A stretch of DNA of 64,000 nt from Acidimicrobiales bacterium (GTDB taxonomy: Bacteria > Actinomycetota > Acidimicrobiia > Acidimicrobiales > Aldehydirespiratoraceae): assembly GCA_033344915.1 (NCBI GenBank), contig JAWPML010000001.1, positions 3,800,263 to 3,864,262 of the forward strand, in the 5' to 3' direction. A model generated the notes under the pieces. It saw nothing but the letters and a program-made list of their open reading frames with translations, ran no database searches and was not told where the DNA came from. Below are positions 7,192 through 9,881 of this stretch, piece by piece. Position 1 is the stretch's first letter; every line of letters starts with the position of its first letter. Made by a program: the position numbers and the translations under genes.

Positions 7192-7869
7192 GTGACTCGC
7201 GCCAAAAGTCTTGCCGTCGGCTTCGCCGTGCTGATCGGTGTCGTCGTCGCGACATCCGCCCTCGCGTTGAACGCCGGCTTCGTCGCCGCCGGAACCGGCG
7301 CCGAGGCGGTCGCCGAGCCACCGGCTCCGACCACCACGACCTACGAGCAATACCTCGAGGAGTGGTACGCGGCGAACCCGACGACCACCGCGCCACCGGC
7401 CACCACCACGACTCCGGTCGAACCCGTGATCATCTACGAGTACGTGGACGTGCCGGTCACCGTCCCTCCGCCGCAGATCGTCTACGTCCCGGCGCCCACG
7501 GTCACGAACCCACCGGCGTCGACCTCCGGTCCTCCGAGTACGACGGTGCCGTCCTCGTCGGACACGACCACGACCCGGCCGCCGACCACAACCGCGGCGC
7601 CGATGGAGTTGCTCGAGTTCGACCTCTACGGCTTCGCCGAGGTGACGATCGCCTCCCACGGGCCCGGCGACCGATTGCAGGCGTGGGAGATCGAACAGGA
7701 CTCCCCGTGGGTGTGGGAGGTGGAGGACGACAACGGACCGAAGGTCGAGGTGAAGTTCTTCAACACCGAGACCGGCAAGGAGGCGAAGCTCAGCCTCCGC
7801 CTCGATGACGACGGGTACAAGCTCAAGACCGAGGGCGATGGCTTCGCGGAACGCGAGGAGTACCTGTGA
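7192..7869 (+). CDS. Membrane-anchored Thr/Pro-rich protein, first gene of the flavin operon, 225 aa
   Basis: An N-terminal uncleaved or cleaved hydrophobic segment (SLAVGFAVLIGVVVATSALAL, about residues 6-25) is followed by a long Thr/Pro-rich exported linker to about residue 142, with YVDVPVTVPPPQIVYVP in its middle, and then a compact acidic C-terminal domain beginning MELLEFDLYGFAEVTI and rich in Asp/Glu/Lys. I do not recognise the domain; it has no FMN-binding-domain signature and no Cys. GTG 7192 follows GGAGA at 7181-7185. CAGGAGACC occurs twice just upstream (7164-7172, 7179-7187). It overlaps the next gene by GTGA, so the four genes 7192-9881 should be one transcript. A role as an extracellular electron-transfer partner is inferred from context only. 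Confidence 0.65.
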   Translation: MTRAKSLAVGFAVLIGVVVATSALALNAGFVAAGTGAEAVAEPPAPTTTTYEQYLEEWYAANPTTTAPPATTTTPVEPVIIYEYVDVPVTVPPPQIVYVPAPTVTNPPASTSGPPSTTVPSSSDTTTTRPPTTTAAPMELLEFDLYGFAEVTIASHGPGDRLQAWEIEQDSPWVWEVEDDNGPKVEVKFFNTETGKEAKLSLRLDDDGYKLKTEGDGFAEREEYL

Positions 7870-8390
7870 GCGACGTCGACGCGCAGGCGGAGCGCCTCCG
7901 CAAGCTCCAGGAACGGCGGTCGACCGCCCCCGCCCCGCGCCGTCGCGCCGGCGCGGTCACCCGAGCGATCACGGGCGGGATCAGCGTCGCGGCCTTCGTG
8001 GCCGTCACCGCCGTGATGGGCCCGGTGTTCGCGGCCACGGAGGAGGAGGCCGCCGTGGTCCCCGTGCCGACGACGACCACGTGGCCGCCGCCGACCGATC
8101 CGGCGCCGCCCCCGTCGTCGATGCCCGTTCCCGAGCCGACTGCGCCGCTGCCGCCCGCGACGATCATCGTCCAGGTCCGGCGGGAGGTGCTGGTCACGGG
8201 CGCCTCCACGCCGGCCGGCGCCCCTCCCGCCGCGCCGAGTCCGAGGGCGACACCCGCGCCGTCCTCGGGTTCGGACACGCCCGCCCCCGCCCCGGCGCCC
8301 GCACCGACGACCACGGCCGCGCCGGCTGCTCCGCCGCCCCCGCCTCCGCCGTCGCCCGCGACCGAGCCACCGTTGAGCAGTGGTAGCTAG
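7866..8390 (+). CDS. Pro/Ala-rich membrane-anchored protein with a possible ApbE flavinylation site, 174 aa
   Basis: A cytoplasmic Arg-rich N-terminus is followed by one transmembrane helix (about residues 33-56) and a proline-rich exported tail. The only non-repetitive part of the tail is a short predicted strand, ATIIVQVRREVLVTGAST (residues 98-115). Its TGAST (111-115) resembles the [S/T]GA[T/S] core that ApbE modifies with FMN in NqrC/RnfG-type proteins. The acidic residue usual a few positions earlier is not there. ApbE is encoded immediately downstream. If the site is used, this would be a minimal flavin carrier without an FMN-binding domain; that is inference. The gene overlaps its neighbours on both sides (7866-7869 and 8380-8390). 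Confidence 0.65.
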   Translation: MSDVDAQAERLRKLQERRSTAPAPRRRAGAVTRAITGGISVAAFVAVTAVMGPVFAATEEEAAVVPVPTTTTWPPPTDPAPPPSSMPVPEPTAPLPPATIIVQVRREVLVTGASTPAGAPPAAPSPRATPAPSSGSDTPAPAPAPAPTTTAAPAAPPPPPPPSPATEPPLSSGS

Positions 8391-9303
8391 CCACCGCTTT
8401 CGGGCGATGGGGACGGACGTCGAGATCCGCCTCGCCGATTCGGCGGGGTGGCTTCTCTCGTTCGCCGAGGACCGGGTGGCGAGGTTCGAACGGATGTGGA
8501 GCCGCTTCGATCCCGAGAGCGAGCTGAGCGCGCTCAACCGGGCGTCGGGTCGTCCGTCGATCGTGTCCGCGGCCACGATCGAGCTCCTTGCCGCCGCCGT
8601 CGACGGCTTCTGGCGCACCGATGGCCTCTTCGACCCCCGGATCATCGACTCGCTGGAGGCGCACGGCTACGACCGGTCGTTCGACCGGATCGATCCGGCG
8701 GCTTCGGTCGGCGGCGGTCCAGCGCCGGGGGGACCGATCGGCCGGCCCCTGACGATCGAACTCCTGGAGGAGGTCGCCGCCGTCGTCCTGCCCCGCGGCG
8801 AGCGCTGGGATCTCGGCGGCATCGGGAAGGGGTTCACCGCCGACCGGCTCGTCGAGGAGCTCTGGCGTGAGGGCGCGGGCGCGGTGCTCGTGAACATGGG
8901 AGGGGACATGCGGATGCACGGCGACGCATTCGGGGAGCCGGCGTGGACCGTGGCGATCGATCACCCGCTGGCCGATGGTGTGCTCGCGGAGGCGCATCTC
9001 CACGAGGGCGCCGTGGCGACGAGCAGCCGGCTGACCCGCCGTTGGCACCGTCGCGGCGCCGAGGCACACCATCTGATCGATCCCCGAACCGGGGCACCCG
9101 CCGAGACCGACCTCGTCGCGGTGAGCGTCGTGGCGTCCAGCGCCTGGTGGGCCGAGGTGCTGGCGAAGGCGGCGCTGATCGCCGGGCGCGCCGACGGCAC
9201 CGCGCTGGTCGAGCGGCATGGCTGCTCCGCGGTGCTGGTCGGAACCCGAACCGATGACGTGACGACCGTAGGCGACCACATCCGACTGCGAGTAGGCGTA
9301 TGA
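8380..9303 (+). CDS. apbE: FAD:protein FMN transferase ApbE, 307 aa
   Basis: Transfers FMN from FAD to a Thr/Ser of a target protein by a phosphoester bond. Family features visible: MGTDVEIRL at the N-terminus (usual MGTxxxI), SRFDPESELSALNR, DGLFDPRI, the WDLGGIGKGFTADRL motif, VNMGGDMRM, and HLIDPRTGAP near the C-terminus with the acidic Mg site. Length is normal for the catalytic domain (about 300). No clear signal peptide or lipobox is present; the start (GTG 8380) overlaps the preceding gene by 11 nt, and its stop overlaps the ferric-reductase gene by ATGA. Context points to flavinylation of a protein in this operon. Confidence 0.93.
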   Translation: MVASHRFRAMGTDVEIRLADSAGWLLSFAEDRVARFERMWSRFDPESELSALNRASGRPSIVSAATIELLAAAVDGFWRTDGLFDPRIIDSLEAHGYDRSFDRIDPAASVGGGPAPGGPIGRPLTIELLEEVAAVVLPRGERWDLGGIGKGFTADRLVEELWREGAGAVLVNMGGDMRMHGDAFGEPAWTVAIDHPLADGVLAEAHLHEGAVATSSRLTRRWHRRGAEAHHLIDPRTGAPAETDLVAVSVVASSAWWAEVLAKAALIAGRADGTALVERHGCSAVLVGTRTDDVTTVGDHIRLRVGV

Positions 9304-9881
9304 ACGAACAACTCTGGTGGTACGTGGCGCGATCGGGAGGCATCCTCGCCTGGGTGATCGTGACCCTCTCGGTGCTCTGGGGGCTCGCCCTGTCCACGAA
9401 GGTTCTCGGCCGACGCGGCGCCCCCGCCTGGTTGCTCGACATCCATCGCTGGTTCGCCGCCCTCTCCATCGTGTTCACCGCGGTCCATGTGCTGGCCCTC
9501 GTCGCCGACAGCTACATCTACTTCGGGTGGTCGGAGCTGTTCGTTCCGATGGCGTCGACCTACGAACCGGCCGCGGTCGCCTGGGGCATCGTGGCCTTCT
9601 ACCTGATGGTCGCCATCCAGATCACCTCCCTGGTCATGCGCAAGCTCCCGCGCAAGGTGTGGCGCTACGTCCACTTCACGAGCTTCCTCGTCTTCGCGTT
9701 GGCGACCTATCACGGCCAGGCCGCAGGTACCGATGCGACGAACGGGGTGTACCGATGGACCGGTCTGGTGCTCGTGCAGCTCGTCCTTTTCCTGCTCATC
9801 GTCCGGCTGGCGGCCCAGCGGCGGTTTCGCAAGCGGACGGGCGGTCGGCCCCGCGCCGGTGTGATCGCAACGATCCTGTAA
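9300..9881 (+). CDS. Ferric-reductase-like transmembrane protein (MsrQ/YedZ type), 193 aa
   Basis: Five or six transmembrane helices with His residues placed for b-type haem: LDIHRWFAAL, TAVHVLALV, RYVHFTSFL and ATYHGQAAG. Such proteins pass electrons from cytoplasmic or quinone donors to an outer partner. It lacks the FAD/NAD domain of full ferric reductases, so the flavin partner is probably a separate protein; the upstream ApbE and anchored proteins are obvious candidates. Length is near that of MsrQ (about 200). It is the last gene of the 7192-9881 unit, and 39 nt separate it from the ECF sigma factor. Confidence 0.85.
   Translation: MNEQLWWYVARSGGILAWVIVTLSVLWGLALSTKVLGRRGAPAWLLDIHRWFAALSIVFTAVHVLALVADSYIYFGWSELFVPMASTYEPAAVAWGIVAFYLMVAIQITSLVMRKLPRKVWRYVHFTSFLVFALATYHGQAAGTDATNGVYRWTGLVLVQLVLFLLIVRLAAQRRFRKRTGGRPRAGVIATIL

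Follow-up and report, generated by a model that had tools for sequence, protein, structure and literature searches.

A proposed C-terminal flavin tag on disordered membrane tethers encoded beside ApbE in Actinomycetota

MsrQ-like flavinylation clusters, in which electrons are thought to pass across the membrane to a covalently bound flavin, have been described as broadly conserved in Actinobacteria, and the available parts of the same survey report orphan apbE genes in 4% of the genomes covered, with substrates that remain unidentified (PMC8238504, eLife 2021). We found a comparable locus in a stretch of 64,000 nucleotides (hereafter the window) from an Acidimicrobiales bacterium (assembly GCA_033344915.1, contig JAWPML010000001.1), where four genes on the plus strand, each overlapping the next, occupy positions 7192–9881. 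Like the MsrQ-like clusters, this operon places the gene of a PF01794 haem membrane protein beside apbE; unlike them, as far as the accessible text of that survey presents them as typically holding a gene for a flavin mononucleotide (FMN)-binding domain, it carries in this slot a protein without such a domain. This second protein of the operon (7866–8390, plus strand, GTG start, 174 amino acids), referred to here as the tether, is the proposed substrate of the neighboring ApbE. We consider that it probably acts as a swinging-arm flavin carrier, to which ApbE attaches FMN at the C-terminal serine.

The tether is composed of a basic N-terminus, one transmembrane helix and a Pro/Ala/Thr/Ser-rich tail of about 110 residues that terminates with a serine. 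Its AlphaFold2 model, built from 7 sequences (predicted template modelling score, pTM, 0.21), contains helices at residues 2–18 and 28–62, followed by neither helix nor strand. The second helix (7947–8051, plus strand) is predicted to hold the transmembrane anchor, in line with the anchor profile described below, while the tail is predicted to be disordered. On the basis of the positive-inside rule and of two gene fusions discussed further on, the tail would be situated outside the cytoplasmic membrane. The last four residues, SSGS (residues 171–174; 8376–8387, plus strand), constitute the proposed flavin acceptor tag, with Ser174 as the likely acceptor. Other tethers end in a similar manner: directly before the stop codon the window protein reads LSSGS, a paralogue RSGAS, and relatives TEASG, TGGS or TTGASGAP. 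In sequence terms, this end is a less strict version of [S/T]GA[S/T], the acceptor motif of ApbE.

Of 56 tethers, 41 carry the relaxed pattern [ST]x[GA][ST] within their final 10 residues. As background for these tethers, it occurs in 393 of 4742 internal 10-mers of their own tails, and over 2000 shuffles the count averaged 7.0 and never exceeded 16; among the other genes in the tether loci it was present at the same distance from the end in 10 of 480, and among FMN_bind proteins in none of 8. Grouped by family code, 19 of the 21 families that contain tethers include at least one with the motif. This first set was derived from 79 places with ApbE, of which one duplicate (L114, the same gene as L091) and seven with less than 400 nucleotides upstream were dropped; the 71 usable places comprised the 56 tethers, the 8 FMN_bind proteins and 7 places without a tether according to our filter, although at L061, one of these filter misses, a short tether with the end TTTSGS is present. 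As the motif was defined after the first loci had been viewed, the count for the 56 tethers is not blind; the second set and the unlinked tethers considered below are fairer, with the reservation that their taxa are related to those of the first set. The second, separately fetched set came from a contig scan with the ApbE alignment, which gave 80 loci and, after the same filter, 33 new tethers (L167 was dropped as a duplicate and 7 loci for having less than 400 nucleotides upstream). Here the motif was found in 24 of 33 tethers, compared with 344 of 2578 internal 10-mers and a shuffle maximum of 11. Both sets together thus give 65 motif-bearing tethers out of 89.

For a sequence logo, all 89 tethers were aligned at the last Ser or Thr among their final 8 residues, which by construction becomes position 0. 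The logo shows Ser/Thr at position −3 in 74 and Gly/Ala at −1 in 70, with position 0 occupied by Ser in 85 and by Thr in 4. The exact core [ST]GA[ST] falls within the last 12 residues of five of the 56 tethers (ends RSGAS, QSGASG, ATSGASGAYR, TTGASGVP and TTTGATVVIP), and the end TTGASGAP mentioned above adds a further exact core from our named set. The tethers without the motif include near misses (ISGS, IRGS, AGAS) as well as true misses (RVSG in four cases, CGSKPC, CQTSKC and RAHVS). Separately, we observed in L036, L046, L148 and L176 a variant tail end in which the Ser is flanked by two cysteines (CGSKPC, CQTSKC, CSGSKC and CSPWSHQQGKC).

The tether end often coincides with the beginning of the next gene, and the C-terminal pattern could in principle be a by-product of the apbE start codon or of its ribosome-binding site. 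Indeed, a potential apbE start codon shares nucleotides with 44 of the 56 tether ends, in many cases at −8, and this constrains the second- and third-last residues. The motif is nevertheless kept in 10 of the 12 tethers that show no such overlap (compared with 31 of the 44 overlapping ones) and in five of six closed frames that are not located upstream of apbE. These non-overlapping and unlinked tethers mostly refute such an artefact, which we regard as the least probable of the explanations considered here.

The unlinked frames were retrieved with A4, a profile of the basic and transmembrane block alone that was built from ApbE-linked tethers. Applied to 100 relatives, A4 produced 44 hits; these come from 27 genomes, each of them among the 46 with an ApbE match. 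No hit was obtained in the 54 relatives without ApbE; as the profile is of low sensitivity, missed genomes with known tethers and was applied to at most 75 candidates per genome, these zeros are weak. Hits in 13 of the 27 genomes, as well as the three in the genome of the window itself, were found by construction, while the other 14 genomes contributed no sequence to the profile. In total, 35 hits lie within 3 kb of a same-strand ApbE and nine do not; the latter consist of six closed frames and three that run off their contigs. Five of the six closed frames carry the motif at their end (TTSGGS, DTTTASS, TRSSGS, DASSHGS and QSRGS). The QSRGS tether (L070, G053:C30:1698-2714) is divergent from apbE, so that no overlap with the apbE start is possible, and one genome (G055) contains three unlinked tethers and a single ApbE match. 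The sixth closed frame (L243, G002:C16) encodes only 55 amino acids ending GARVR and appears as a degenerate tether frame next to what is left of an operon. The fetched stretch yielded no ApbE; the enzyme and the tail motif may have disappeared jointly in this case. We also noticed that one A4 hit, at L101 (G054:C219:7107), is the anchor belonging to an FMN_bind protein: it immediately precedes an FMN_bind match in the same orientation. This hints at an anchor common to tethers and FMN_bind proteins.

An earlier, sequence-only reading of this DNA had placed the acceptor elsewhere in the tether, at an internal TGAST which indeed occupies residues 111–115 (8196–8210, plus strand). According to this view, FMN would be attached to Ser114 or Thr115, and TGAS is an exact [ST]GA[ST] core that follows a strand-like stretch, IIVQVRRE (residues 100–107; 8163–8186, plus strand), similar to stretches seen in five other tethers. 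However, none of these five has TGAST after it. Internal [ST]GA[ST] sites were detected in only 6 of 89 tethers and at unrelated places, while the two paralogous tethers of the same genome lack any tail copy outside the last 14 residues. A regular expression combining a hydrophobic stretch with [ST]GA[ST] matched, on the plus strand of the first 33 loci, the window locus only, and sites of the [ST]x[GA][ST] shape occur in the window tether at residues 133 and 163 as well. The site is little more than what tails of this kind yield. The conservation of TGA[ST] among homologues, proposed in that reading as a check, thus fails, and it is the C-terminal tail that is conserved instead; the terminal SSGS had gone unnoticed in that reading. 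Because TGAST is not conserved among tethers, we reject it as the acceptor and consider its flavinylation very improbable, while the general architecture put forward in the same reading, that of a disordered tether with one FMN beside a haem protein, is well supported.

As for the remaining genes of the operon, the open reading frames and the sequence bear out the arrangement of four overlapping genes reported earlier, and Pfam agrees with the functions then assigned to the third and fourth. The apbE gene (8380–9303, plus strand, GTG start, 307 amino acids), the start of which overlaps the tether end, encodes a putative ApbE-type FAD:protein FMN transferase (FAD, flavin adenine dinucleotide) that matches ApbE (PF02424) with 175.9 bits against a cut-off of 25.6. 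It is followed by the gene of an MsrQ-like haem membrane protein (9300–9881, plus strand, ATG start, 193 amino acids) that matches Ferric_reduct (PF01794) with 42.8 bits against a cut-off of 28. Neither of the two anchored proteins encoded upstream matches FMN_bind (PF04205) or any other Pfam family above cut-off, as had been anticipated. NCBIfam matches all remained below cut-off (for the haem protein, MamZ with E 1.4e-6), and sequence searches of the PDB gave no firm match for the haem protein or for protein 1. The haem protein was also considered as an acceptor and rejected, as the window copy contains no [ST]GA[ST]; such a core is present in 5 of 61 haem-protein sequences. Gene calling and the transmembrane test relied on simple scripts (codon log-odds and Kyte-Doolittle hydropathy, respectively).

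The genome consists of one contig of 4,481,363 bases and encodes three ApbE proteins and three tethers, each of the apbE genes having a tether gene upstream and an MsrQ-like gene downstream. A genome-wide search at E 0.001 yielded no match to FMN_bind, DUF2271 (PF10029), DUF3570 (PF12094) or NqrB/RnfD, Flavodoxin_4 and FMN_red not having been sought. Across the first set, a same-strand PF01794 gene accompanies 49 of the 56 tethers, and three of the seven remaining loci themselves end within 110 nucleotides of the apbE match. The window operon has the PF01794 gene beside apbE by which MsrQ-like systems are recognized.

The first gene (7192–7869, plus strand, GTG start, 225 amino acids) encodes protein 1, with one N-terminal transmembrane helix, a low-complexity linker and a C-terminal beta domain (residues 138–224; 7603–7863, plus strand) of eight predicted strands, for which structure prediction gave block-mean pLDDT (predicted local distance difference test) values of 86–97 from residue 141 onward. 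The description of both anchored proteins as Pro/Thr-rich therefore suits the low-complexity tether and leaves out this beta domain. The model has no firm relative in the PDB (best Foldseek E 0.031, best VIA-align Z 6.9), and the fact that FMN_bind was missing from the matches listed is uninformative either way. Protein 1 might itself be the real or a second flavin acceptor, with the tether in an accessory role. In one subclade (L085, L205, L194 and L181) protein 1 indeed carries TGAS-like sites (TGAS, TTGAS, TTKAS or TTRAS) right before its acidic end, resembling the tether of the same locus, and has a coiled-coil-like middle, as if it were a second acceptor. Window protein 1, in contrast, is devoid of [ST]GA[ST], and among proteins 1 of the same operons as the tethers the [ST]x[GA][ST] pattern lies within the last 10 residues in only 1 of 54 (1 of 43 once 11 rows judged to be other genes are removed). 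We hold a flavin on protein 1 to be slightly less probable still than one on the internal TGAST. An acidic, Asp/Glu-rich C-terminal tail is common in the protein-1 slot of relatives, and MsrQ-like clusters with an iron transporter exist (PMC8238504, in the parts available); taken together, a role in iron metabolism is only a suggestion.

Concerning the enzyme, the window ApbE has two codons between its aligned start and the preceding in-frame stop, which leaves no room for a signal peptide. Its relatives in the PDB are 1vrm and 4xdt. In the named set, a crude hydropathy test of ApbEs linked to Ferric_reduct revealed neither a hydrophobic segment nor a lipobox ahead of the domain, and no hydrophobic segment was found before the domain of the relatives' nine FMN_bind-linked ApbEs either (L102, one of the nine, aligned only partly). 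Hydropathy before the ApbE match stays below 1.5 in 53 of 56 tether loci; the values of 1.56–1.92 in L073, L090 and L091 come from stretches that extend far upstream of the match. The extracytosolic ApbE or FMN-binding protein that also characterizes MsrQ-like systems, recognizable by a signal peptide or lipid site, was thus not found in the window operon.

We further placed the enzymes on a tree of 151 rows, drawn, once L114 and L167 had been left out, from the other 157 loci by requiring an ApbE match of at least 200 residues. For this purpose L040, L090 and L186 were labelled as other, and 12 tethers judged by eye were added together with L061. In this quick IQ-TREE run, which was evaluated by the Shimodaira–Hasegawa-like approximate likelihood ratio test (SH-aLRT) and not by bootstrap, a branch with an SH-aLRT of 100 separates 97 tether-linked and 22 other ApbEs from 9 FMN_bind-linked, 1 DUF2271-linked and 22 other ApbEs. 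The 19 changes of the tether label along the tree stem partly from truncated loci. The sequence-only reading would have been undermined by relatives whose ApbE is linked to a canonical FMN-binding protein; such a linkage does occur, but only within the separate ApbE group beyond this branch. The active-site Ser and His columns are conserved on both sides, while the acid of the A-D-[AS]-L-[AS]-T-A block differs: it is Asp in 32 of 32 canonical-side rows, whereas the 97 tether rows have Glu (83), Asn (8) or Asp (6). At this position the window ApbE has Glu (E255, alignment numbering), with a Trp replacing Phe nearby. The variable acid aligns to about residue 284 of Treponema pallidum Ftp (chain 4xdt), which we take to be a metal ligand. 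The spacing of S211, H227 and E255 (Ser-16-His-28-acid) equals that of the triad Ser241-His257-Asp285 reported for Vibrio cholerae ApbE, and the three residues were matched to the triad on this basis.

Taken together, we propose the following mechanism. The basic N-terminus and the single transmembrane helix would anchor the tether, leaving its tail outside the cytoplasmic membrane. ApbE, devoid of a signal peptide, would transfer FMN to Ser174, the last serine of the [S/T]-x-[G/A]-S motif, before or during export; that the tether end is the last part to emerge offers one reading of how a cytosolic enzyme may reach an exported tail. The tethered flavin could then exchange electrons with the haems of the MsrQ-like protein and with a partner outside. 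Both the FMN on the last serine and the electron exchange with the haem protein are inferred from the features described above.

Several observations weigh against this scheme. The window end SSGS differs from the exact canonical core [ST]GA[ST], and only 3 of 89 tethers have the Asp of the extended motif D-x-x-[ST]-G-A-[ST], the window end TEPPLSSGS having Pro there. The motif is missing from 15 of 56 and 9 of 33 tethers in the two sets, and only 3 of 15 loci from other phyla possess [ST]x[GA][ST]. ApbE appears to be cytosolic, whereas the tail is predicted to lie outside. On the tether side of the tree there are 22 ApbEs without a tether; 10 of them have less than 400 nucleotides upstream and 12 have enough (three of these being the relabelled ones), and among the 12 we recognized one divergent tether, one tagged lipoprotein-like protein and one fusion without the motif. 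Given the change from Asp to Glu in 83 of 97 tether-linked ApbEs, transferase activity is not to be assumed. Flavinylation of the tether is at this stage an unproven proposal drawn from sequence.

Alternatively, the C-terminal serine motif might be conserved because of some other function, for example as a docking site for the haem protein or ApbE, with ApbE modifying a different protein or just hydrolysing FAD. The motif is less strict than its canonical counterpart, even more so beyond Actinomycetota, the modification of the tether is so far a prediction, and the replacement of Asp by Glu could alter the activity of ApbE. As a precedent, T. pallidum Ftp is described, in the account available, as a metal-dependent FAD pyrophosphatase, and two kinds of acceptors reported in the accessible part of PMC11334425, Flavodoxin_4 and FMN_red, lay outside our genome search. 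On the other hand, the motif is shaped like an ApbE acceptor, and several families include exact [ST]GA[ST] ends; moreover, the four known acceptor families searched for were not found in the genome, and the canonical acceptors of relatives stand beside a different ApbE group. We therefore judge such a role unlikely, though clearly less so than the other alternatives, and retain the tether as a probable flavin carrier.

Tethers next to an apbE and a Ferric_reduct gene were found in the named set in Arthrobacter, Mycolicibacterium vanbaalenii, Cellulomonas, Salinibacterium and others. Similar tails are encoded in 15 Ferric_reduct-linked loci of Chloroflexota and Bacillota, e.g., with the ends NTRSSR (Herpetosiphon), TRSGTS (Ktedonobacterales) and QSSHSK (Exiguobacterium); these loci were picked by record title, and most of the ends were read by eye. 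A looser pattern, [ST]xx[ST], is present in the last 6 residues of 14 of the 15, compared with 16% of the 6-mers in the 89 tails, the rule having been set post hoc. In two Ktedonobacteria loci, L196 (2518–3912) and L191 (2467–3873), anchor and tail are fused behind FAD/NAD reductase-like and CxxxxCxxC ferredoxin-like parts, these domain names having been assigned by eye. Both fusions adjoin apbE and an MsrQ-like gene; that of L196 ends TRSGTS, and that of L191 ends SPSPAH without the motif. Their organization supports the tail-out topology and, in those loci, an NAD(P)H donor. In uncultured actinobacteria (L160, L161 and L164), the tether slot is taken by lipoprotein-like proteins with a common middle domain and the ends SNSNAS, SNSQGS and SSSQSS. 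The tag looks modular, as lipoprotein-like proteins and a reductase fusion that occupy this gene slot have ends of a similar kind. It seems somewhat likely, if less so than the carrier role of the tether itself, that Actinomycetota and, in a looser form, Chloroflexota and Bacillota naturally use a flavin tag of some four residues at the C-terminus, lacking any flavin-binding fold, with the FMN at the tip of the tether serving as a swinging one-flavin electron arm, and that this kind of tag has moved onto lipoproteins and a reductase fusion.

We propose that such a tag represents a new class of ApbE acceptor. Covalent attachment of FMN by ApbE and MsrQ-like clusters are already known, as far as the available parts of the cited reports go; so are terminal tags made by engineering, a single natural site at an N-terminus and one class with sites on a C-terminal extension. 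In the open-access literature (no preprints and few subscription papers being covered) we found no description of an acceptor that lacks a fold and lies at the C-terminus of a disordered tether. If true, the proposal would add a new substrate class of ApbE and a minimal redox carrier. It offers an acceptor for one set of apbE-carrying genomes without a known one, a gap stated in the accessible part of PMC8238504, and yields a sequence rule for low-complexity tails overlooked by domain libraries. It also provides a testable case of a covalent flavin that would serve as a redox carrier without a binding fold, and raises the question of how a flavin attached by a signal-peptide-less ApbE ends up outside the membrane.

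Among the described ApbE substrates, DUF2271 and DUF3570 (PMC8238504) resemble the tether as acceptors without FMN_bind, and were found from orphan apbE loci; yet they are domains of about 135 and 420 amino acids with a conserved [ST]GA[ST], whereas the proposed tether site comprises the last residues of a disordered tail. The ApbE-associated FMN_red proteins (PMC11334425, mSystems 2024) likewise have an unstructured C-terminal extension with predicted sites of flavinylation, but this extension adjoins a folded flavin-binding site, a fold the tether lacks. The Flavin-tag, a 2021 method covered by the review PMC12052999, consists of 7 residues and performs best when placed at either terminus of a protein; it demonstrates that a short terminal peptide suffices for FMN attachment by ApbE, as we propose for the tether. 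In contrast to the tether tag, which is natural and has Asp in 3 of 89 and Ser in 85 of 89 cases, the Flavin-tag is engineered, possesses the Asp and prefers Thr. With respect to this Asp the papers, in the parts available, disagree: its change to Ala had a minor effect in Klebsiella (PMC12052999), while for the V. cholerae enzyme it is reported as essential. The trypanosomatid fumarate reductase, finally, shares with the tether a natural terminal acceptor motif ending in Ser, with FMN on Ser9 in Leptomonas; unlike that of the tether, its site is N-terminal and belongs to a large enzyme fused to its own ApbE, as presented in the accessible text of PMC8065229.

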